In this document: piece after piece, positions 1-36,076 of the stretch
Layout of the letters: every line of letters begins with the position of its first letter
Position numbering within the stretch: position 1 is the first letter of the stretch
DNA from: Candidatus Binatia bacterium
GTDB lineage: Bacteria; Desulfobacterota; Binatia; HRBIN30; BPIQ01
Direction: 5' to 3'
DNA length: 64,000 bases
Assembly (NCBI GenBank): GCA_026004195.1
Contig: BPIQ01000002.1
Location: forward strand, 1-64,000
The notes under the pieces: model-generated
What the model saw: only the letters and a program-made list of their open reading frames with translations
What the model was told of the DNA's origin: nothing
Databases searched by the model: none
Translations under genes and position numbers: made by a program

Positions 1-393
1 GAGTACTTCCCGAACCTCGCGCAGGAATGGCTCCGGGTCGGCGAGGTGCTCGAGCACCTGGAAGTTGCAGACCACCTCGAACTTCTCGCCGAGGTCCCGG
101 AGTCGGGTGAGATCGCAGACGCGGTACTCGAGGTTCGCCCGCGAATAGCGCCGGCGGGCGGCCTCGATCGCTTCCCCGGAGCGGTCGACGCCGAGGGCGT
201 GGCGCGCCGTGCGCGCGAGAAGCTCCGTGCCGTAGCCGTCGCCGCAGCCGGCATCGAGAACGCTCTTCCCGCGCACGAGCTCCTGGGCATAGCGGTAGGC
301 CACCAGGTGGCGGGCCATGTCCGCCACGAAAAGCGGGTCGCCCGCCACGAGCCTCTCGCCCGTGAAAATGCCGCCGCCGCTTTCGTCAGCCAC
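1..393 (-). CDS. Class I SAM-dependent methyltransferase (3' end beyond window)
   Basis: The visible part encodes the first 131 residues of a Rossmann-fold methyltransferase. Residues about 46-55 read LDAGCGDGYG, the glycine-rich SAM-binding motif I, followed by an acidic residue at the end of the next strand (GVDRS) and a motif IV-like NFQVLEHL. The start is GTG at 393, which overlaps the stop of the upstream membrane glycosyltransferase by 8 bases, so the two are probably translated together. The position at the end of a glycan cluster suggests methylation of a sugar or lipid-linked intermediate, but the substrate cannot be read from the sequence. The C-terminus lies outside the window. Confidence 0.8.
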   Translation of the reverse strand, partial: MADESGGGIFTGERLVAGDPLFVADMARHLVAYRYAQELVRGKSVLDAGCGDGYGTELLARTARHALGVDRSGEAIEAARRRYSRANLEYRVCDLTRLRDLGEKFEVVCNFQVLEHLADPEPFLREVREVL

Positions 394-3300
394 TGCCGTT
401 CTCTCCCGGCGTGCCGGAAACTCCGACACGCCGCACCCGAGGCGCCCCCGGACCGCTCGCATCCTCTGCCGGACTGCCGGACCACCTTGCCGCAAGCGCC
501 TTGCTTGCCCCCTCGACGGCGCGCCGCGCGAAGGCCCGGACACGATCGTCGGGATCTTCGAGAAACGGCCGGACGCTTTCCGGAAAGCCGAGCTGCCCGA
601 GTCCCCAGACCGAGGCCATCCGAACTTCGGGGAAGGGGTCGAACGCCGCGTTCTCGAAGGCTTCGCGGAAGGCGGGGTCGCGGGTCGCCACAGCGATCCA
701 GAAGGCGAGCGAGCGAACCTGGGTGTCGGGATCCGCCATGCGGCGCTCGACCACCGGGCGGACCTCCTCGGGAGCACGAGAGTAGAGGTCGAGGAGAAGC
801 TCGGGGACGAGAAACCTGTCCTCGGCGAGAAGGCGCCCGAGCGGCCCCGCAATCTCGCCCCCGATCCCGTGCCGGGCGAGGCTCCGGGCGGCCTCCACCC
901 GCAGGGGCGAGAACATTCCCGAGTTCCCCAGAAGGCCCACGAGCGGCACGACGAGAAACTCCTCCTGCCGGTAGCCGGCGAGAAAGACGGCAAGCCACCG
1001 GACGGCGTAGTTCTCCCAGGGGTTTTCCATCCACACCGCAAGCCGTTCGGGCTGCATGCGCTCGGCGATCGCTTCGACCTCGTCCTGCGAGTCGGGAACG
1101 TACCAGTACTCTTCCATCCCGGTCCGCGAAAGGATGCCGAAGAAAATTCCCGCGACCGCCATCCGCTCGAGGGCATCGTTCGAACGGAACGAGTCGACGA
1201 GCGGGAACAGGGCCGTCACGTCACCCACCTCGACGACGACGCGCACGAAGAGCTCGCGGACCCGGGGCTCGAGCGGAAGCGCCGCGAGTGCCCGGGCGAG
1301 AACTTCCGCTCCCCCGCGGCTCCGGCTCTTCCGCACCATGCGGGCGAAAAGCCGCTGCGCTTCCGCGTCGAGGCCGCCGAGCACCTCGAGCGGTTCTTCG
1401 CCCGCGGCGATGCGCCCGAGGGCGTAGTCGAGCCTGCGCCGCGTGGCACCGCGGAGACGCCGGAGCTCGCGGCGCCAGGAGGCCGTGTCGGCAAGAAGAG
1501 TCTCGGGCGCCTGGACGACCGGGAGGTCTTCCGAGGAGCCCCGAGGCCGCAGGATGTCGAAGGTCCCGATGCGCCGCTCGAGCTCGTAGCGCTCGCGGAC
1601 GTAACGCCGCAACTGGAAGTAGTAGAGCGGAGCCCCGAGAAAGTACATCGGGTGGTCGTGCAGCGCGACGACGTAGCGCGGCGGCCGCGTCTCGAGATCG
1701 TCGATCACCTCGGCTTCCACGTCGTGGCCCGGCCAGCCGGGAAAGAAATAGCCGTGACGGGTCGGGTTCTGGCGGCCGGAAAGGAAGAGCAGCAGGTCGA
1801 GGGCCGGGAACGTGAAAACGTAGTCTTCGGGACCGGAGCGTTCCCGCAGGTAGCCGACCGTGCGCGAGAGGTCGCGAAAGAGCCGGCCCGCCGCGGGCTC
1901 GACGACGAGGGAAGCCCGCTCGCTCCCGAGCCGGACCACCGCTTCGCCGTCCCGCCCGAGATAGGCTCTCGCGAGGTATTCGATCCGGCCCAGGGCGGGG
2001 GCCACCCAGACGAAGACCAGGACGTAGAGCGGGGCGGCCACGAGCACCCGCACGAGCCGGCGCCCTCCCGGAGAGCCTGCGAGCGCATCCCCCCAGAGCG
2101 TCGCGAGCCGAAAGAGAAGCCAGGCCGCGACGACGAAAAGCCCCGGAGCCGCGGGCACGAGGTGCATGAAGTCCGTCCGCGGGTAGAGCCGCATGTGCAT
2201 GAGAAGGCCGGAGAGAAGCGCGACGAGAAGCTTTCCCTGCGAGGTGGCTTCCTCCTCCGCCCGCGGGCCGAGTTCGCGGAAGAGATAGGCGAGAAGGCCC
2301 GCCCAGGCGACGAGCAGAACGAGCCCGAAGGCGAGATGCCGCATGCGCATGACCACGGAAGCCTGAAAGCCTTCGACCATGGGAGGCGGCGAAAAAAACC
2401 AGACGGCAGCGCCCCCGGCTGCGGCAACGACGAGTGCGGCGGGCGCGAGCCACCGGGGCGGGGGAAAACGCCGCGCGAGAAAGCCCGCCGCGACGATAAG
2501 CGCGGCCCCCGCGAAAAGGGCCAACTCCCAGCGGCCGAGCGGCGGGTAGGCGAGGTAGTAGAAGCTCTCGAAGTTCGTGCCGACGAAAAAGATCGCGCGC
2601 AGAAAGGGAGCCGTGCCGAGCTCTCGCCAGAAGTAGAAAAGCCACGGGGCCGCAACGAGCGAGAACCCGAGGAGAAGCCAGAGCCCCTGCTTCCAGAGAC
2701 GCGAGCGGCGGAACGTCCCTCGTGCGGGCGGGCGGGCGCGCCACGTGGAAGAGGACGAGGACGGCGAGCGGCAGGACGAAAAGTGCGAAGTTCCGAAAGC
2801 CCCGGTCGGGGCCGCGCAGGAAAAAGATGGCAAGCGCGAGCACGAGAAGGAGGGGCCCCCAGAACCGCAGTAACCGCTCGCCGCGGGAAAGAAGCCGCTT
2901 CCAGGCCGGCGAGCCCGGGTCGGGGAGTGCGGGCTTTTGCAGCAGCGCGAGCACGAGCAGGAGCACCGAGAGGTCGAGAAGACCCGTGTTGGGCTTGAAG
3001 GAAAAAGCGAGGCCGCAAAAAAGCCCGGCCCAAAACCAGGCTCCGTTCCTTCCCCGCACCCACCACCGGAGGACGCACGCCACCGAGGCGAGCCAGAAGG
3101 CCGTCGAGTACCAGATCGGGTAGGGAATGTTGAAGGAGGCGAACTGCCCGTCGTAGAAGGGAACGAAGGCGACGTAGAGGAGCGAAGCCAGCGCCCCGAA
3201 AAGCGGCGGCACGCCGAGCGAGCGAGCGAGAAGGTAGAGGAGGAAGACGGCTCCGGTGTTCACGGCGGCGAGCGCGAGCCGGAGCACGAGCACGTCGACG

Positions 3301-3557
3301 CCGAAGAGCCGGAAAAGCGCCGCGTTCCAGAGAAAGACGCCCGGCGTGTACCCCGCGTGGAAGTCCACGTAGAGCCGCTCGCCCGCGTAGGTGCGGTAGA
3401 TCTGGTAGAGGATCGTCCCCTCGTCGTCGAGGTTGAGGCCGTAGGGCGCGAGCGCGAGAAAATAGCCGAGCGTGCCGAGGAGAAGCACGGCCCCGACGCT
3501 GCGGTCCCGCAAAAGAGGGCGCCTCGGCGGGCCTTGCGTGCCGCGCGGCGAGCTCAC
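386..3557 (-). CDS. GT-C-like membrane glycosyltransferase with C-terminal HEAT repeats (paralog A, frameshifted)
   Basis: Large polytopic membrane protein. After the first hydrophobic helix comes an acidic loop (NLDDEG) and then GYTPGVFLWN, the layout of GT-C enzymes that use polyprenyl-phosphate sugars. About ten more hydrophobic segments follow, and then roughly 300 residues of helical HEAT-like repeats to the C-terminus. GTG at 3557 is preferred: GGAGG sits just upstream and it overlaps the previous stop as GTGA; an ATG at 3578 is possible. The coding frame changes once, within the repeated GGGC units at about 2724-2740: 5' of this the frame reads FALFVLPLAVLVLFH, 3' of it WKQGLWLLLGFSLV. 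Removing one base restores a single protein of about 1,056 residues that aligns along its length with the neighbouring paralog. Sugar and acceptor are unknown. Confidence 0.75.
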
Positions 3558-6526
3558 GCCCCCTCCGGCCCGAGCCATCCCAGGCCGAGGCGTGCGAACT
3601 TCCTGACGACCTCCTCGGAATCCCCGGAAGCCAGCTCCTCGAGACGCCCCCGGAGCTCGCGCACACGCGCGAAACCGGCCGACCAGGCACAGGCGCAGCG
3701 GACCCGCGGGTCGGGGACTTTCGTTCCGGCCTCGAAGGCGGGGGCGAAGGCCGCGTCCGAGAGAGCGGCCATGACGAAGCAGAGGGTCTCCTTTCTCCGG
3801 ACGTTTCCGGCGGTGAAGCTCCTGGTCAACTTCTCTCTCGCTTCTTCGGGCTTTGCGCGCGCCCAGCGCAGGACGAGCGGCGGCACGAACATTTCGTCGC
3901 GCTCGAGGCTCTCCAGAAGACGTTCCACAACTCCGTCCGTAACGCCAAGCCGAAAAAGCGCGTCGGCGGCCATGGCCTGCACGACGACGTCGTTCGTCTC
4001 GAGAAGACGGCGGAGGTGTGGCTCGGCTTCCCGGACTCCCAACTGCCCCCCGAGCCAGGCCGCCACGAGCGAAAGCCTCGGGTCGAGATGGCCGAGCCAC
4101 TCCTCGGCCGCCTCCCGAGCCCGCTCGTCGCTCCGCATGGCCGCGAGCGCCTCTCCCCTCTCCCTCCAGGAAAACGTGTCGATGAAACTTCGGAGCACGA
4201 TGTTGAGGAGCGCACTCCGCAGCTCCTCTCGCACGCGACCTCGCACGACGTTCTCGGCTGCGGCGAGCCCGCCGACGCTCCGGGCGTCGCCGAGCTCCCC
4301 GGCGGCCCGCACGGCCAGAAGGCGTGCCCTCCGGGCGAGCGTCCCTTTCGCGAGGGCCTCGACCAGAGGCAGAACGCCGCGGGGGTCGCGGCTCTGCCGC
4401 AGGAGTGTCACGGCCTCTTCCTGAAGCGCCGGATCTTTTTCGGTCCAGCACGGAGCGAGAAGGCGGCCGTCTTCCGGGAGGATCCGGCGGGCGAGCCGCA
4501 CCGCCTCGGCGCAGCTTCGCTCGGTCTCGACTTCGACCGCCGGGGCCGGCCCGCGCAGGAGCTCGGTTCTCGGCTCGCGTCCTTTTCGCAGGAAGAGGTC
4601 GTAGCTACCGACGCTCCGGAAAAACCGGTACTCGCGCTCGACGTAGGTGCGCAGGAGGAAGTAGTAGAGCGGGGCGTGCCCCATGTAGAGCTGCTGGTCG
4701 TGGTTGAGGGCCACGAGCGGCGTCCCGGCGGCCTCGAGCGAGCTTACGATCTCGGCCTCGAGGATGTGGTCGGGCCAGCCCGGATGGAAGGAACCGTAGC
4801 GGCCGGGGACGTGGCGTCCGGAGAGGAAGTTCACGAGGTGGAGGTTCGGAAAGCCGAGAAGCGTCTCGCCTTCGTCCGACTCCGACTCGACGAGCCGTAC
4901 GAGCCCGGCCAGGTTTTCGAGCCGTCGTTTTCGGCCCGCCTCGAGAAGGACGGACGCCCGCCGGAGCCCGAGCGCCGCGAGCTCCTCGGGCCGTGCGGTA
5001 CGGAAGCGCAGGGCCGTCGAGACCCCGGGCCAGGCGAAAAAAGCGACGACCGCAGCCAGGGGGAGCGCGGCCAGAGAAAGCGCCCAGCGGCGGGGACCGA
5101 ACCACCGGTAGGCGAGGCGCGAAGCAAAAAGAGTCCCGAGAAGGACGGTGACGGGAGCGGAAAGCACCCAGTGGAAAAAGTCGCTGCGAGGCCAGATGGA
5201 CAGGTAGAAGACCGGGGCTCCGACGGCGAGGCTCGCCGAGGCGAGCCAGCGAAGCTCCCTCTCGCGCTCGGGTGAACGCGCCTCGCCGCTCTCGGCCGAA
5301 AGCCTCGCTCCCCGCTGCCGCAACGTGCGCGCACACCAGAGGACACCGGCCCAGTGGACCAGGAGCGCGGCGCCGAAGGCGAGGTACTCGAGGCGCTTGG
5401 TGACGGCGCGGTGGAGGCCTTCGGGCATGGGCGCCCGGGCGAGAAAAACGCCTCCGGCCGTCGCGGCCAGCACGAGACCGACGAGGAGGAGGAACACTCG
5501 ATCGCGCGGAAACTCGCGAACGTACCGGCCGAGAAAGACCGCTCCGGCAGCCACGAGGGCCATTCCCACGTCCCAGACGCCGAGCTCGCGGATGGGCAGA
5601 TAGAAGAAAAGCGCGTGACCCGAGCCCACGAAGAGCACGTCGCGCAAAAATCCCGACGGGCCGAGCATGCGAAAGACCGGAACGGCCCACGCGAGCGTGA
5701 CGAGAAAAAACCCCGCCCCGAGAGCGAGAGCGCCACGGACAAACGGGGGATCGAGCCGCGAGAGGGGGCGGGCCCGAAAGACGGCGCGCAGGAGGGCAAG
5801 CGCGAAGACGGGCCAGAGAAGAAGCCGCGCGTCGCGGTTCGTAAGCCGGAATCCGAAGACGGCGGCAATGCCGGCGACCGAGCCGAAAAGAAGAAGCCAC
5901 CATGCGGCGCGAGCAAGGAGCCTTCCCCGGCACGGGGCGGCGTAAAGGAGAGCGAGCGCGTAGGCCGCGAGAGAAAAGGCGCCGGTGTTGGGCTTGAGCG
6001 CCGTGCCGAGGCCGGCAAAAAGGCCGCCGAGGAGCGCCCACCCGGCGCGCCCCGTGCCAAAAAAGCGCAGCATGGCGAGAAGCCCGGCTGCGAACGTGAA
6101 GACGGTGTACCAGGCGGGGTACGGCACGTTGAAGGCCGCGAACTCGCCGCGGTAGACGGGCATGAGCGCCACGTAGGCAAGCGGCCCGAGGAAAACGAAG
6201 GGCCCGGGCAGGACGTGACGGCCGAGGCGAGCAAGAGAGAAAACCGCCGCCGAGTGGACGAACGCGAGCGCCCAGCGCAGCACGACCAGGTCCACGCCGA
6301 AAAGACGAAAAAGCGCGGCGTGCGCCGCGAAAAACCCGGGCGTGTAGCCCGTCCCGAAGTCGCGGTACGGCACCTGCCCCGTGAAAGCGCGGTAGACGAG
6401 ATAGACGACGTCCCCGTCCTCCCCGAGGTGGAACCCGTAGGGAACGAGGCTCCCGAGGTAGACAAAGACGAGAAGGGCGAGAGAGAAATCCGCCCAGAAA
6501 GCCCGGTCAACGGCCGGCGCCTTCAC
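3554..6526 (-). CDS. GT-C-like membrane glycosyltransferase with C-terminal HEAT repeats (paralog B)
   Basis: Intact 990-residue paralog of the downstream gene. The N-terminal half has a TM helix, an acidic LGEDGD loop, a tyrosine-rich stretch and GYTPGFFAAHAALFRLFG, then about ten further hydrophobic segments, as in GT39/PMT-like enzymes. The last third is soluble and made of helical HEAT-type repeats (for example RRASVLLEAGR, SLVAAWLGGQLG, ADALFRLGV). GTG at 6526 was chosen because the hydrophobic domain begins soon after it and it overlaps the upstream glycosyltransferase by 20 bases, consistent with translational coupling. The fusion suggests a membrane sugar transferase with its own scaffolding arm, which is inference. 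No exact family name is certain. Confidence 0.78.
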   Translation of the reverse strand: MKAPAVDRAFWADFSLALLVFVYLGSLVPYGFHLGEDGDVVYLVYRAFTGQVPYRDFGTGYTPGFFAAHAALFRLFGVDLVVLRWALAFVHSAAVFSLARLGRHVLPGPFVFLGPLAYVALMPVYRGEFAAFNVPYPAWYTVFTFAAGLLAMLRFFGTGRAGWALLGGLFAGLGTALKPNTGAFSLAAYALALLYAAPCRGRLLARAAWWLLLFGSVAGIAAVFGFRLTNRDARLLLWPVFALALLRAVFRARPLSRLDPPFVRGALALGAGFFLVTLAWAVPVFRMLGPSGFLRDVLFVGSGHALFFYLPIRELGVWDVGMALVAAGAVFLGRYVREFPRDRVFLLLVGLVLAATAGGVFLARAPMPEGLHRAVTKRLEYLAFGAALLVHWAGVLWCARTLRQRGARLSAESGEARSPERERELRWLASASLAVGAPVFYLSIWPRSDFFHWVLSAPVTVLLGTLFASRLAYRWFGPRRWALSLAALPLAAVVAFFAWPGVSTALRFRTARPEELAALGLRRASVLLEAGRKRRLENLAGLVRLVESESDEGETLLGFPNLHLVNFLSGRHVPGRYGSFHPGWPDHILEAEIVSSLEAAGTPLVALNHDQQLYMGHAPLYYFLLRTYVEREYRFFRSVGSYDLFLRKGREPRTELLRGPAPAVEVETERSCAEAVRLARRILPEDGRLLAPCWTEKDPALQEEAVTLLRQSRDPRGVLPLVEALAKGTLARRARLLAVRAAGELGDARSVGGLAAAENVVRGRVREELRSALLNIVLRSFIDTFSWRERGEALAAMRSDERAREAAEEWLGHLDPRLSLVAAWLGGQLGVREAEPHLRRLLETNDVVVQAMAADALFRLGVTDGVVERLLESLERDEMFVPPLVLRWARAKPEEAREKLTRSFTAGNVRRKETLCFVMAALSDAAFAPAFEAGTKVPDPRVRCACAWSAGFARVRELRGRLEELASGDSEEVVRKFARLGLGWLGPEGA

Positions 6527-7694
6527 GCCTCGCCTCGCCCCGCCCCGGAACCGGCTCGCCCCCGAACCAGGAAAAACGCGGGAGCTCCGGGTCTCCCCGT
6601 GCCACGGACTCGATGCACTCGGCCGTGGCCTCCGCCACCGCATCCCAGGAAAAAGTCTCGGCCCAGAGGCGGGCATTCCTTCCGAGCCGCCTCCGCTCCG
6701 CCTCGTCGCGCAAAAGCCCGACCAGTGCCACCGCTACCCCTTCCACGTCGCCGTGCCTCACGAGAACTCCCGTTTGCCCGTTTACCACGGAATCCCGCAA
6801 ACCGGGAACGTCGCTCGCCACCGTCGGGATGCCGCAGGCCGCCGCCTCGAGCACCGTGAGACCCCAGCCCTCTTTCTCGGACGTGTTCACGGCCACGTGT
6901 GCCTCGGCCATCCGGCGGAGCTTTTCCTCCTCGGAGACGGGACCGGTGAGCGTGACGGCTCCCCGGAGGCCCAGTCGCTCGACCTCCCGGCGCGCGGCTT
7001 CGAGTCCCGTGCCGCCGCCCACGACGACGAGCCGGCTTTCGGGCAGGGCTTCGCGGACCCGGCGGAAGGCGCGGAGTGCCAGGTCGAGCCGCTTGTAGGG
7101 TTCCACGCGCCCGAGGACGAGGACCGTCGGCGGAGGCGGAGGAGGCTCGGCAGGCGGCCGGTAGTGGGAGCAGTCGACGCCGTTGGGAACGACGACGATG
7201 CGCTCGGCGGGGATGCCGCGCCGTACCAGGTCTTCGCGTGTGCTGGGGGACACTGCCAGGAAGGTCGAGTTCCGGTAGAAGACCGGAATGAGCCATTCCG
7301 ATGCGACGACCACGGCTGCGACGGGAGCCGGCACCTGCTGGAAGGCGGTCGTGCCGAAGAGGTGGTGCGTGACGGCGAGCATGGGGCGCCGGGCGAGAAG
7401 GGGCGTGAGGAACGGGAGCTTGCACAGGTGCTCGATGATCACGGTTTCGGGACCGAGGAAGCGGCGCATCCGGAAGGGGAACCGGAGGTAGTACGTGAAG
7501 CGGTTTCCGAAGCGCACGACGCGCACGCCGCGGATTTCCGTCTCGGCGGCCGCGCCCGGAAAGCGCGTGCAGAGGAGCGTCGCACGGTAGCCGAGGCGCA
7601 CGAGGCGGCTCGTCACCTCGAAGAGGTTCACCTCGGCTCCACCCGCGTTCGGGTGCTCGAGGTCGCGCTCGTTCAGCAGGAGAAGGTCGCGCAT
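6507..7694 (-). CDS. Glycosyltransferase family 4 (GT-B fold)
   Basis: A 395-residue retaining GT4 enzyme that transfers a sugar from a nucleotide donor, probably to a lipid-linked glycan at the cytoplasmic face. It begins MRDLLLLNERD with the GGAEVNLFE acceptor-site glycine loop. The C-terminal Rossmann half has VLVLGRVEPYKRLDLAL, VVVGGGTG and the E-x7-E region EKEGWGLTVLEAAACG. ATG at 7694 is 14 bases after the preceding stop. The gene overlaps the next one by 20 bases and belongs to the glycan operon downstream of gmd. Mannosylation is plausible because GDP-mannose enzymes lie beside it, but donor specificity is not shown. Confidence 0.88.
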   Translation of the reverse strand: MRDLLLLNERDLEHPNAGGAEVNLFEVTSRLVRLGYRATLLCTRFPGAAAETEIRGVRVVRFGNRFTYYLRFPFRMRRFLGPETVIIEHLCKLPFLTPLLARRPMLAVTHHLFGTTAFQQVPAPVAAVVVASEWLIPVFYRNSTFLAVSPSTREDLVRRGIPAERIVVVPNGVDCSHYRPPAEPPPPPPTVLVLGRVEPYKRLDLALRAFRRVREALPESRLVVVGGGTGLEAARREVERLGLRGAVTLTGPVSEEEKLRRMAEAHVAVNTSEKEGWGLTVLEAAACGIPTVASDVPGLRDSVVNGQTGVLVRHGDVEGVAVALVGLLRDEAERRRLGRNARLWAETFSWDAVAEATAECIESVARGDPELPRFSWFGGEPVPGRGEARREGAGR

Positions 7695-7708: not shown

Positions 7709-8437
7709 CTAGAGGCGTCCCAGGGCGGCCTGCAAGCGGAGCCACCACACGATCCAGAGCGCCTCGAGCGCGATCCTCTTGTTCATCTTGGAATCGCCCA
7801 GCGTTCGGTCGGCGAAGATGATGGGGATCTCGCGGATCCGGTAGCCGCGCTTCCAGGCGCGGTAGGTCGTCTCGATCTGGAACGCGTAGCCGTTCGAGCG
7901 CACCCGCTCGAGCCCGATCCCCTCGAGCGCCTCGCGCCGCCAGCACTTGAAGCCCCCGGTGACGTCGTGCGTCGGAAGCCCCGTCACCTTGCGCGCGTAC
8001 CAGTTGCCGAAATAGCTCAGGAGAAGCCGTTCGATGGGCCAGTTGATGACCGTGATGCCCTTGAGGTAGCGGGAGCCGAGGACCATGTCGCAGTCCTCGA
8101 TGCAGCCGAGAAACTCGCTCACGACGTGCACGGGGTGGGAGAAGTCGGCGTCCATCTGCACGACGTAGCGCGCTCCCTGCTCGAGCGCCCGGGCGAAGCC
8201 GGCCTTGTACGCGGGACCGATCCCCTCGGGCCGCCCTCGCCTGAGCACGTCGACGCGGGAATCCTGGCGTGCGAAACGCTCGGCGACCTCGGCCGTGCCG
8301 TCGGGCGAGTTGTCGTCGACGACGAGGACGGAGACGCGCTCGTCCTGGGCGAGAAGCGCCGGGACGAGCTTTTCCACGTTTTCCCGCTCGTTGTACGTCG
8401 GGACGACGACGACGCAGGGTGTCGAGAGGCGATTCAC
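7709..8437 (-). CDS. Dolichyl/polyprenyl-phosphate mannose synthase-like GT2
   Basis: A 242-residue family 2 glycosyltransferase that would load a sugar from GDP-mannose (or a similar donor) onto polyprenyl phosphate at the inner membrane. It shows the GT-A signature VVVPTYNERENVEKLV, the DDNSPDGT donor loop, DADFSHP with the catalytic DxD-type acidic residues, and FADRTLGDSKM near the end, all typical of DPM1-type enzymes. It lacks a large C-terminal membrane domain, so it is the short catalytic form. The start is GTG at 8437. A lipid-linked sugar made here is the expected donor for the two GT-C proteins downstream. Confidence 0.9.
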   Translation of the reverse strand: MNRLSTPCVVVVPTYNERENVEKLVPALLAQDERVSVLVVDDNSPDGTAEVAERFARQDSRVDVLRRGRPEGIGPAYKAGFARALEQGARYVVQMDADFSHPVHVVSEFLGCIEDCDMVLGSRYLKGITVINWPIERLLLSYFGNWYARKVTGLPTHDVTGGFKCWRREALEGIGLERVRSNGYAFQIETTYRAWKRGYRIREIPIIFADRTLGDSKMNKRIALEALWIVWWLRLQAALGRL

Positions 8438-8542: not shown

Positions 8543-9670
<1,128 letters not shown>

Positions 9671-9762
9671 TTACATACCACCGTCCGGCGGCTCGGCCAA
9701 ACCCCGGAGAATGCGCCGGCGAGCCGAACCGGGAGCGACGTGGGCGTCACGGCCACCCGGAG

Positions 9763-10177
9763 GGACGCGCTCCGTCGCGTCCGGGAGGGGCGGGGGACGG
9801 ATCGACGTTCACGGCAAGCGCGAACACGGACCCTAGAGAGCGGGCCCCTCCGACGATCACGGCCACCCCGGAGGGACGCGCTCCGTCGCGTCCGCAATGA
9901 ACGACGTCGGTGTATCCGACCATGGCCACGACAGAGCGTGGCCCTCCGATTGTCCCGGGGGAGATACGAACGTTCCGCCGCGCCAACGACGGACGCGTCA
10001 ATGGGCGAATCACGCCCGAGAGACGCGCCCGCGCGCGAGAGCGTGGTGTTCCGAATGCCACGACAGAGGTGGCCCTCCGATATGTCCCGGGGGGATACGA
10101 ACGTGTCCGCCGCGTTTCCAACGACGCGACGCGTCCAATGGGCGAACACGCCCGGAGGGACGCGCTCCGTCGCGTCC
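9763..10177 (+). repeat. REP-like palindrome cluster 1
   Basis: The 9662-10237 gap has no credible gene. It holds perfect copies of the 20-base type A hairpin at 9763-9782, 9874-9893 and 10158-10177, a type C hairpin at 9828-9847 (one changed stem base) and a type B hairpin at 9924-9943, with a shortened type B at 10057-10073. All read with their CGGAG/GGAG head on the 5' side of the plus strand, opposite to the other clusters. The stretches 9933-10020 and 10066-10160 are diverged copies of each other. Confidence 0.85.
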
Positions 10178-15671: not shown

Positions 15672-15834
15672 GGACGCGACGGAGCGCGTCCCTCCGGGTG
15701 CGTCGTTTCGCCCAACGAATCGGAGGGCCACGCTCTGTCGTGGCCGTCGTCGTGCATGGCGGGAACGTCGGTCCCCGGGCACGAACGGCCGCGTGGATTC
15801 CCCTCCCCGCCCCCGGACGCGACGGAGCGCGTCC
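15672..15834 (-). repeat. REP-like palindrome cluster 2
   Basis: Type A hairpins at 15672-15691 and 15815-15834 with a type B hairpin at 15726-15745 between them. The whole block is almost identical to 18426-18589 and 20008-20171, with the same 54-base A-to-B and about 144-base A-to-A distances. The CGGAG heads lie on the minus strand. Confidence 0.88.
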
Positions 15835-15858
15835 CTCGGGATGCGTCGGAGCGCGTCA

Positions 15859-18425: not shown

Positions 18426-18908
18426 GGACGCGACGGAGCGCGTCCCTCCGGGTGCGTCGTTTCGCCCAACGAATCGGAGGGCCACGCTCTGTCGTGGCCG
18501 TCGTCGTGCATTGCGGGAACGTCGGTCCCCGGGCACGAACGGCCGCGTGGATTCCCCTCCCCGCCTCCCGGACGCGACGGAGCGCGTCCCTCCGGGTGCG
18601 GCCGCGGTCGTCGATCATTCGCATATCGGTCGTCCAATGCCGGCGCCCGTGTTCATCCCCGCCGCCCCCCCGGACGCGACGGAGCGCGTCCCTCCGCGTG
18701 GCCGTGGTCGTCGGAGGGACCCGCTTTCTAGGGTCCGTGTTCGCGCTTGCTGTGAACGTCGATCCGCCACCGCCCCCCCGGACGCGACGGAGCGCGTCCC
18801 TCCGCGTGGCCGTGGTCGCTCGGAGGGACCCGCTTTCTAGGGTCCGTGTTCGCGCTTGCCGCGAACGTCGATCCGCCCACCGCCCCCCGGACGCGACGGA
18901 GCGCGTCC
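18426..18908 (-). repeat. REP-like palindrome cluster 3
   Basis: Largest cluster: perfect type A hairpins at 18426, 18570, 18672, 18780 and 18889 (20 bases each), type B at 18480-18499 and type C at 18717-18736 and 18826-18845. Spacing is regular: A to B 54 bases, B to next A 90, A to C 45 or 46. The unit A-C-A is present twice in tandem. All CGGAG heads are on the minus strand. Confidence 0.9.
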
Positions 18909-18930
18909 CTCCGCCCCGGGTCCGTGCCGA

Positions 18931-20007: not shown

Positions 20008-20418
20008 GGACGCGACGGAGCGCGTCCCTCCGGGTGCGTCGTTTCGCCCAACGAATCGGAGGGCCACGCTCTGTCGTGGCCGTCGTCGTGCATTGCGGGA
20101 ACGTCGGTCCCCGGGCACGAACGGCCGCGTGGATTCCCCTCCCCGCCTCCCGGACGCGACGGAGCGCGTCCATCCGCGTGGCCGTGGTCGTCGGAGGGAC
20201 CCGCTCTCTAGGGTCCGTGTTCGCGCTTGCCGTGAACGTCGATCCGCCGCCGCCCCCCGGACGCGACGGAGCGCGTCCCTCCGGGTGCGTCGTTTCGACC
20301 GCGAACGGACCGGCGGTCATTGCCAACGTCTGATCGGGCACGTCGCGTCCCGGGAACGCGAACGCCGCGGGTCCATCCCCGCCCCCCCGGACGCGACGGA
20401 GCGCGTCCCTCCGCGGGT
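20008..20418 (-). repeat. REP-like palindrome cluster 4
   Basis: Type A hairpins at 20008, 20152, 20259 and 20399, type B at 20062-20081, type C at 20197-20216. The first 164 bases are a near copy of clusters 2 and 3. It fills the gap between the coiled-coil start and the glyA stop, and the last palindrome lies 45 bases from the glyA stop, where it could stabilise the 3' end of that mRNA. Confidence 0.88.
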
Positions 20419-35119: not shown

Positions 35120-35959
35120 TCAACGGGAGAGATAGCTGCGGCTGAAAATGTTGTCCGGCAGGTCCACGTCGTAGGTGACGTCGGTCGTGACCAGCGTGGA
35201 CTTCGTTCCGGACTTCAGGTTTTCCATCGTCTGCTCGACCGGCGTCCAGAAGCCCTCGATTTTCTCGAGCTTGGTGACGCGCCAGACCTTCAGCGGCTTC
35301 CCCTCCAGGTCGAAAAACTCCGTCCGCAGGACGACGAGGTCCGCGGGATCGATCGCCATCACGACCTTGCCGTAGAGCTGTCCTTCGAGGCTTTTCGGCA
35401 GGGCCTCGACGAGACGGAGCTTGCGGCCGTCCAGGGTTTCCTCACCCACGTAGCGGTAGTCGTACTCCGCCAGGTCGGGGGCCACCAGGTCGGACACGTA
35501 GAAGTCCGAGCCGAGGAAGGGCTGCTTGCGCGTTTCGTCGGCGATGCGAATGGCCCGCCGGAGGGCGGGAACGTAGATGAACTGCTCGTCGCGGCCTTCG
35601 GTCCTCTCGAAAAAGAGAAAGCGGGTGTCCTTCACGTCGTGCGGTGCGGTTACCTCCATGTAGTTCGCGAAGACCTCGCCCTGCTTTTTGTGCCGGAGTT
35701 CGAGCTGACGCTCCCAGCCACGGGTAGAGGAAAGCGTCATGCGCGCCTCGAACGGCCGGTCCGGCGTGTTCTCGACGACGCGGCGGACGAGCTCGCGGGG
35801 CCCGACCTCGCCGGTGCCGTCACCCGCCACGGGGCCGGCAGCCAGCGAGAAGGGGGCCAGAAAGAACAGAAGGCCCACAACGCATACGGCGGAAAGCCCC
35901 GGACGCGACGGAGCGCGTCCCTCCGGGGGAACGTGGCCCTCGACGATACGAACCGCCAT
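35120..35959 (-). CDS. LolA-like outer-membrane lipoprotein-sorting protein
   Basis: Soluble periplasmic beta-sheet protein of the LolA-like group that travels with RND/MMPL exporters; the exporter gene lies directly upstream. Visible motifs are YVPALRRAIRIADETRKQPF, FLGSDFYVSDLVAPDLAEYD and LVVLRTEFFDLEGKPLKVWR. A hydrophobic signal (LLFFLAPFSLAAGPVAG) starts near codon 28. The start is uncertain: ATG at 35959 would place a REP hairpin (35901-35920) in the coding region, while GTG at 35878 gives a short signal without positive residues. Neither has a ribosome site. It may carry lipids or a hydrophobic cargo from the exporter to the outer membrane. Confidence 0.72.
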   Translation of the reverse strand: MAVRIVEGHVPPEGRAPSRPGLSAVCVVGLLFFLAPFSLAAGPVAGDGTGEVGPRELVRRVVENTPDRPFEARMTLSSTRGWERQLELRHKKQGEVFANYMEVTAPHDVKDTRFLFFERTEGRDEQFIYVPALRRAIRIADETRKQPFLGSDFYVSDLVAPDLAEYDYRYVGEETLDGRKLRLVEALPKSLEGQLYGKVVMAIDPADLVVLRTEFFDLEGKPLKVWRVTKLEKIEGFWTPVEQTMENLKSGTKSTLVTTDVTYDVDLPDNIFSRSYLSR

Positions 35960-36076
35960 CTCGGACGCGAGCGGCCGCGTCGATCCCCTCCCCCCCGGAC
36001 GCGACGGAGCGCGTCCCTCCGGGTCGTTCGCGCCACTCCGTGCCCGGGATCCGGAGGGCCACGCTCTGTCGTGGCC
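35901..36076 (-). repeat. REP-like palindrome cluster 5
   Basis: Type A hairpins at 35901-35920 and 35997-36016, a variant with a NotI-like centre at 35963-35982, and type B at 36057-36076. It fills most of the 35960-36225 gap between the LolA-like gene and the exporter gene and may run into the LolA-like reading frame. Orientation is as in clusters 2-4. Confidence 0.85.

Follow-up and report, generated by a model that had tools for sequence, protein, structure and literature searches.

GT-C Glycosyltransferases Fused to a HEAT Solenoid: A Conserved Family in the Bacterial Class Binatia

Introduction

Two adjacent genes at one end of a contig of a Candidatus Binatia bacterium seem to join a sugar-transferring membrane domain to a long stretch of helical repeats, which raises the question of what kind of enzyme they encode, how widespread such a fusion is in related genomes, and what a repeat solenoid might contribute to a glycosyltransferase. 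In an initial annotation made from the DNA letters, both genes were described as PMT/GT39-like proteins with C-terminal HEAT repeats, placed in an operon-like run with other sugar-related genes. Here we analyze the domain composition, predicted structure, catalytic loop, distribution, and gene neighborhood of this pair. The window consists of the whole stretch of 64,000 nucleotides opening with the first base of contig 2, in a genome of 3.63 Mb comprising six contigs.

Results and Discussion

Domain Architecture of the Gene Pair

The genes are all carried by the minus strand and are arranged, toward the contig start, in the order gmd, GT2, GT4, gene 2, gene 1, and methyltransferase (Table 1). 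The GTG start codon of gene 1 overlaps the TGA stop codon of gene 2.

Table 1. Features of the gene pair and of its neighbors in the window.
Feature	Positions	Strand	Remarks
Methyltransferase (SAM), conserved neighbor	1..393	-	Truncated by contig start; Pfam of relative L029
Gene 1: GT-C membrane domain, alpha/beta domain, HEAT solenoid	386..3557	-	Frameshifted; DEG-type catalytic loop
Gene 1, C-terminal part: rest of membrane helices, alpha/beta domain, HEAT solenoid	389..2719	-	HEAT_2, 49.2 bits
GCCC tandem run	2724..2737	-	In the short interval of the gene 1 frame change
Gene 1, N-terminal part	2745..3557	-	PMT_2, 36.1 bits; GTG start
Gene 2: GT-C, alpha/beta, HEAT	3554..6526	-	990 aa, intact; GTG start; GED replaces DEG in the catalytic loop
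Gene 2, HEAT solenoid (residues 672-984)	3575..4513	-	Model secondary structure; matches with alphaRep, PP2A, and an Integrator-PP2A chain
GT4 glycosyltransferase, conserved neighbor	6507..7694	-	Start picked by eye
GT2, polyprenyl-phosphate-hexose (DPM) synthase-like, conserved neighbor	7709..8437	-	
gmd, GDP-mannose 4,6-dehydratase, adjoining the operon here	8543..9661	-	TIGR01472, 454.4 bits (cut-off 415)

As the initial annotation proposed, the two genes have the same layout: Pfam matches and AlphaFold2 models delineate a GT-C membrane part, a small alpha/beta domain, and a HEAT solenoid. The HEAT_2 profile (PF13646, cut-off 27.7 bits) was matched above its cut-off by both gene 2 (48.7 bits) and the C-terminal part of gene 1, and the repeat stretch, previously put at about 300 residues, amounts to about 310 in the gene 2 model. 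The PMT_2 profile (PF13231, cut-off 26.1 bits) was matched above its cut-off by the N-terminal part of gene 1 and reached 41.0 bits in the L051 orthologue of this gene; the gene 2 protein of the window gave no PMT_2 match at E<=1, and its L051 orthologue scored 41.9 bits. Among 26 family members, HEAT_2 was matched by 25 and PMT_2 by 20 (E<=1); the six members missed by PMT_2, gene 2 included, count against the explanation favored below. The 20 Pfam families matched by these 26 members at E<=1 comprise neither the classical PMT model, which characterizes GT39 PMT proper, nor MIR, nor any TPR family. 

The NCBIfam search did not yield any fused family: gene 2 had three matches, all under the cut-off, and the 26 members matched mainly HEAT models (NblB-like in 11 of them), along with TIGR03663 (Agl23) in three (best E 1.6e-7). 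That no standard family corresponds to this fusion, as had been supposed, is consistent with the fact that none of the Pfam and NCBIfam families matched covers the GT-C/HEAT combination. Neither the fusion, nor its spread in the class, nor its operon was found in the literature searched, most subscription papers being outside that search. Frames of 1417-1430 aa in L039, L060, L064, and L069 would be about 430 residues longer at the N-terminus; this candidate extension was dropped because the region gave no Pfam match at E<=0.01 and overlaps the GT4 gene, which is read in a different frame.

Gene 1, which was initially taken to be intact, contains a break that had been missed: in the assembly, the N-terminal part with PMT_2 and the C-terminal part with HEAT occupy different frames, which meet near a GCCC tandem run, the only copy of this run in the window (0.03 expected). 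A conserved programmed frameshift was ruled out, since each of the five orthologues in L029-L033 is encoded by one uninterrupted frame (1033-1092 aa); that in L034 is truncated by a contig end. The frame change could mean that gene 1 is decaying into a pseudogene, leaving gene 2 as the sole functional copy in this strain. We regard this as possible but somewhat doubtful, as both halves retain the motifs of the family and still score above the Pfam cut-offs, the break falls at the tandem run, and the five orthologues are intact. A recent slip, a switchable slip, or an assembly error explains the break equally well.

Predicted Structure and Orientation in the Membrane

In the AlphaFold2 model obtained for gene 2 (mean pLDDT 88.9, pTM 0.91, based on an alignment of 27 sequences), membrane helices up to residue 510 are followed by an alpha/beta domain at residues 512-647 and then by nine to ten helical pairs, so that the C-terminal part is predicted to be a HEAT-type solenoid, as previously suggested. 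The best GT-C matches of this model, with Z scores ranging from 20.6 to 18.9, were with Pmt4 (residues 5-531, Z 20.6, rmsd 5.1, 374 aligned), a chain of the Pmt1-Pmt2 complex (residues 3-516, Z 20.3, rmsd 4.6, 372 aligned), AglB (residues 11-662, Z 19.5, rmsd 4.7, 428 aligned), ArnT (residues 11-656, Z 19.0, rmsd 5.0, 430 aligned), and STT3. The multi-spanning membrane fold on which membership of the GT-C superfamily is based extends over residues 5-662, and by its modeled fold gene 2 belongs with the GT-C enzymes, its catalytic loop being unusual, bearing in mind that a fold alone proves no function. Normalized by query length, the GT-C matches have low Foldseek TM-scores (0.26-0.33, in the case of a multi-domain chain), which counts against the favored explanation.

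The protein O-mannosyltransferases PMT/POMT (GT39) provide the best structural match with the membrane part, and the neighboring GT2 suggests that polyprenyl-phosphate-mannose may be the donor here too; unlike PMT/POMT, the Binatia proteins have no classical PMT or MIR match and carry the alpha/beta and HEAT parts C-terminally. ArnT and other bacterial PMT_2 enzymes share with them the profile found in most family members and, in the case of ArnT, an alignment reaching beyond the membrane part. ArnT modifies lipid A, and to our knowledge it has no HEAT solenoid. The oligosaccharyltransferases AglB, PglB, and STT3 have the GT-C fold in common with gene 2 (Z 14.9-19.5), but they transfer whole oligosaccharides, and we know of no HEAT solenoid in these enzymes either.

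The C-terminal region of gene 2 matched alphaRep (residues 829-990, Z 16.6, rmsd 4.0, 158 aligned), a designed HEAT protein (from residue 832, Z 16.1, rmsd 4.0, 155 aligned), an Integrator-PP2A chain (residues 686-990, Z 14.4, rmsd 6.6, 288 aligned), and PP2A complexes. The model of the gene 1 C-terminal part (777 aa, pLDDT 82.6, pTM 0.82) is less certain and shows the same alpha/beta and HEAT parts, with the HEAT helices at residues 408-746; it matched HEAT and armadillo proteins, mostly over residues 441-747, with Z scores of 11.8-15.2. These values lie in a grey zone which repeats and helical models easily reach, and this counts against the favored explanation. The high pTM of the gene 2 model suggests that the solenoid may be held at a fixed place relative to the enzyme.

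As regards the orientation, beyond residue 512 of gene 2 the 19-residue hydropathy peaks at 1.46, at residue 915, inside the HEAT helices. The C-terminal domain of ArnT is periplasmic. Since the alignment with ArnT runs into this domain, and since the basic residues of gene 2, read by eye, gather in the loops expected inside, including the loop preceding the final helix, the HEAT part is probably periplasmic and would lie on the same side as the catalytic loop.

Catalytic Loop

The acidic pair in the first outer loop is kept in all 38 fusion rows of the alignment. The loop reads xDEG in all the rows outside the gene 2 clade and GED or GEE within this clade. Gene 1 has the Asp at the catalytic position, and so do all 30 fusion rows that fall outside the clade of gene 2. 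In gene 2 and the seven other members of its clade, Glu takes the place of this Asp; by count, it occurs in the six orthologues scored (6/6) as well as in two other members of the clade. Six more positions showing at least 90% conservation elsewhere are altered in the gene 2 clade (43, 308, 313, 443, 451, and 577 in gene 2 numbering). The coherence of these changes across the clade suggests a new specificity rather than decay. According to one study (PMC7801869), all the sugar transferases recovered in the TMTC homology search keep the Asp at the catalytic position, and replacing the catalytic-loop Asp in a yeast Pmt abolishes function; the replacement of Asp by Glu across the gene 2 clade thus amounts to a natural experiment on a residue which that study reports to be essential in other GT-C enzymes.

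Distribution and Evolution of the Family

The fusion is not peculiar to the genome under study. In a survey of the class, 44 of the 148 Binatia genomes gave a match at E<=1e-60, and 34 of the 148, spread over 10 family groups, carry a full-length copy, defined in the match table of this survey as a match running from model position <=30 to >=985. The genomes with no full-length fusion include complete ones: the fusion is therefore common in the class, but not universal. A scan of 395 genomes of the phylum, in which two candidates per genome were scored, gave a list in which all the full-length matches lie within Binatia, the other matches listed covering the HEAT or the GT part alone. Eight stretches, picked mainly for their long open frames, were then inspected: in the seven from outside the class, the fusion was not found, and the proteins were HEAT-only with zero to one hydrophobic segment, while that from inside the class (L078) has the GT part and no HEAT. 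The only survey reaching beyond the phylum was a scan with two family motifs, taking one genome per species, which found 26 loci.

In the tree of 55 GT domains, a long HEAT part is present in 38 rows, a short C-terminus in seven, and none in eight, with two state changes in all; two rows cut by contig ends are unlabeled. The tree is based on a short search and is rooted by choice on the HEAT-less rows, and it includes three rows of odd letter make-up; two L043 rows were left out, having too few GT columns. The alignment, tree, and synteny counts omit nine loci, eight of which are on the same contigs as others, the ninth (L059) being nearly identical to L041; nine fragments failing to span model positions 60 to 620 were also omitted. 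The distribution of the long, short, and absent forms on the tree fits a single fusion event, without proving it, and the direction of the change depends on the HEAT-less outgroup chosen. Genes 1 and 2 belong to separate, well-supported clades (seven rows with SH-aLRT 100 and eight rows with SH-aLRT 98, respectively), which indicates, on the basis of the tree, that they are old paralogues rather than the products of a recent duplication. The two genes stand next to each other in seven genomes belonging to the window's order, that of the window included (G000, G001, G003, G004, G006, G012, and G013), and is cut by a contig end in G006.

The HEAT part evolves fastest, its mean pairwise identity being 25%, as compared with 36% for GT-C and 40% for the alpha/beta domain; this is what would be expected of a variable recognition module. 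The family alignment of the HEAT part did not show any strongly conserved patch, which counts against the favored explanation, and the few conserved residues presumably correspond to HEAT framework positions. The solenoid might therefore be purely structural, stabilizing either the alpha/beta domain or a dimer formed by the products of the two genes, without recognizing anything, and the existence of relatives in which the HEAT part is short or absent is in line with this idea; we consider it unlikely, however, given that 38 of the 53 labeled rows retain a long HEAT part, with two state changes in all on the tree.

Conserved Operon and Candidate Acceptor

The usual gene run consists of a polyprenyl-phosphate-hexose-synthase-like GT2, a GT4, the GT-C-HEAT gene (once or twice), and a methyltransferase. 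Among the 36 long-HEAT proteins outside the window, counted after removing duplicate loci and including five loci with a tandem pair, the GT4 is located upstream in 29 (24 operons), the DPM-like GT2 upstream in 28 (23 operons), and the methyltransferase downstream in 29 (24 operons). In two of the cases without a methyltransferase (L034 and L047), its place falls at a contig end. The identities of these three neighbors to the window genes span 60-74, 46-64, and 46-75%. The GT2 is the best-conserved operon member (60-74%), and its closest solved relative is a dolichol monophosphate mannose synthase (5mlz, E 1.4e-27). Two observations count against the favored explanation: five of the 36 proteins (L035_11439, L036_12946, L037, L038, and L053) lack all three neighbors, each of them sharing its locus with another family member located beside the operon genes, and L045 and L052 lack the GT4. 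A cluster containing a flippase (of the MOP type, tested for L040 only) is present in 23 of the 37 distinct loci, and 14 of the 37 have a member of a cluster that includes a protein of the sulfatase family (tested for L029).

The operon-like run described in the initial annotation is thus conserved in the relatives as far as the polyprenyl-phosphate-mannose-synthase-like gene, the GT4, and the methyltransferase are concerned, but this is not true of gmd, which was labeled in none of the 46 relatives' loci (many of which are short) and was dropped as a fixed part of the operon. A deoxysugar may still be involved in the order to which the window belongs, since in L031, L033, and L034 the position occupied by gmd in the window, directly upstream of the GT2, is taken by an RmlD-type reductase gene (Pfam-tested for L031 only) that shares the strand of the GT2.

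From these data we infer the topology, donor, acceptor, and role of the solenoid as follows. Genes 1 and 2 would encode paralogous integral-membrane GT-C glycosyltransferases of a Binatia family, facing the periplasm with their catalytic loops as well as with the alpha/beta domain and the HEAT solenoid. The GT2 would put a hexose, probably mannose, on polyprenyl phosphate, from which the GT-C enzymes would pass it on to an acceptor located on that side of the membrane. This acceptor would most likely be a lipid-linked or surface glycan built jointly with the operon's GT4 and methyltransferase, and the solenoid may serve as an arm docking the acceptor or a partner protein. Taken as a whole, this explanation, in which periplasm-facing enzymes use a polyprenyl-phosphate-linked hexose, is the one we favor with moderate confidence. 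Since the pair is accompanied by a GT4 and a methyltransferase, and in many cases by a flippase, a glycan acceptor is more likely than a protein acceptor.

Comparison with Known Solenoid-Bearing Transferases

GT-C enzymes bearing an alpha-solenoid arm are already known from human TMTC1-4 (CAZy GT105) and TMEM260 (GT117), which likewise have an N-terminal GT-C domain with acidic residues in the first outer loop, and at the C-terminus an alpha-solenoid that lies on the outer (luminal) side (PMC7801869, PMC11292533), the side of the Binatia arm being deduced. Their solenoid is composed of TPR, whereas that of the Binatia proteins is composed of HEAT repeats, and their acceptors are proteins (cadherins and plexins), with no operon of GT4 and methyltransferase genes. 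The luminal TPR part has been proposed to recruit the substrate domain (PMC11292533).

The Binatia enzymes might accordingly be protein O-glycosyltransferases, in which the HEAT solenoid would bring in folded proteins, secreted or on the surface, to be given a hexose, as has been proposed for the TPR arms of TMTC1-4 and TMEM260. The order of the parts is the same, Pmt4 and the Pmt1-Pmt2 complex are among the top folds, and the solenoid is the fastest-evolving domain, as well as being comparable to arms proposed as substrate recruiters (PMC11292533). The GT-C fold cannot separate protein from glycan acceptors, however, and the GT4 and methyltransferase in the operon, often with a flippase nearby, point to a multi-sugar glycan; moreover, no acceptor protein turned up among the neighbors identified here. 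We therefore hold a protein acceptor to be rather unlikely, and prefer the glycan as the candidate. In a bolder version, which we rate as improbable, the family would be the bacterial counterpart of TMTC and TMEM260, consisting of GT-C protein glycosyltransferases choosing their substrates by means of a periplasmic HEAT part, and the divergent paralogue pair would include, in the Glu-bearing gene 2 clade, a specialized or non-classical partner.

The authors of PMC11292533 left the role of the arms in TMTC and TMEM260 open. The Binatia family joins a GT-C transferase to another type of alpha-solenoid, in bacteria, and in one operon across many members of the class, thus providing a compact, testable system for studying the role of solenoid arms.

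Genes accompanying the operon in related genomes

A second cassette, in which a HEAT-less member of the GT-C family adjoins another GT4 enzyme, shares loci with the main operon, and its GT4 matches that of the window at 28-35%. One of the records carrying this cassette, L069, is titled as a Klebsiella pneumoniae MAG; the position of the match is the same as in G032, a genome of the class survey, and despite its title the record seems to belong to the class of the window. A protein combining a GT2 domain and a methyltransferase domain adjoins the operon in the relative's locus L057, and further long GT2 proteins follow the methyltransferase at several loci. Upstream of the GT2 gene in locus L029, a sulfatase-family protein was identified (146.6 bits), the single-linkage cluster of which has members in 14 of the 37 distinct loci.

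The gmd tail and an apparent dispersed repeat

The model match of the gmd protein stops at residue 318 of 372, and the sequence beyond it is a charged tail closing the protein, in which an 11-residue sequence is present twice.

The 24-mer GGAGGGACGCGCTCCGTCGCGTCC, which has inverted arms of 7 bases, occurs in the window in 16 copies at ≤3 mismatches, versus 0 expected. Genome-wide, 311 exact copies were found (0 in the backward-read control), and the copies are often arrayed on the same strand with a spacing of about 100-150 bases. This sequence looks like a dispersed repeat of very high abundance.

Locations of the features described
Feature	Record	Positions
Second cassette	L039, L040, L041, L046, L057, L069, L070, L072	
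Sulfatase-family protein	L029	16094-18376
GT2-methyltransferase protein	L057	12756-14288
gmd charged tail with two 11-residue copies	window	8546-8707
GGAGGGACGCGCTCCGTCGCGTCC 24-mer	window	9759-10177, 15672-15838, 18426-18912, 20008-20412, 35901-36020
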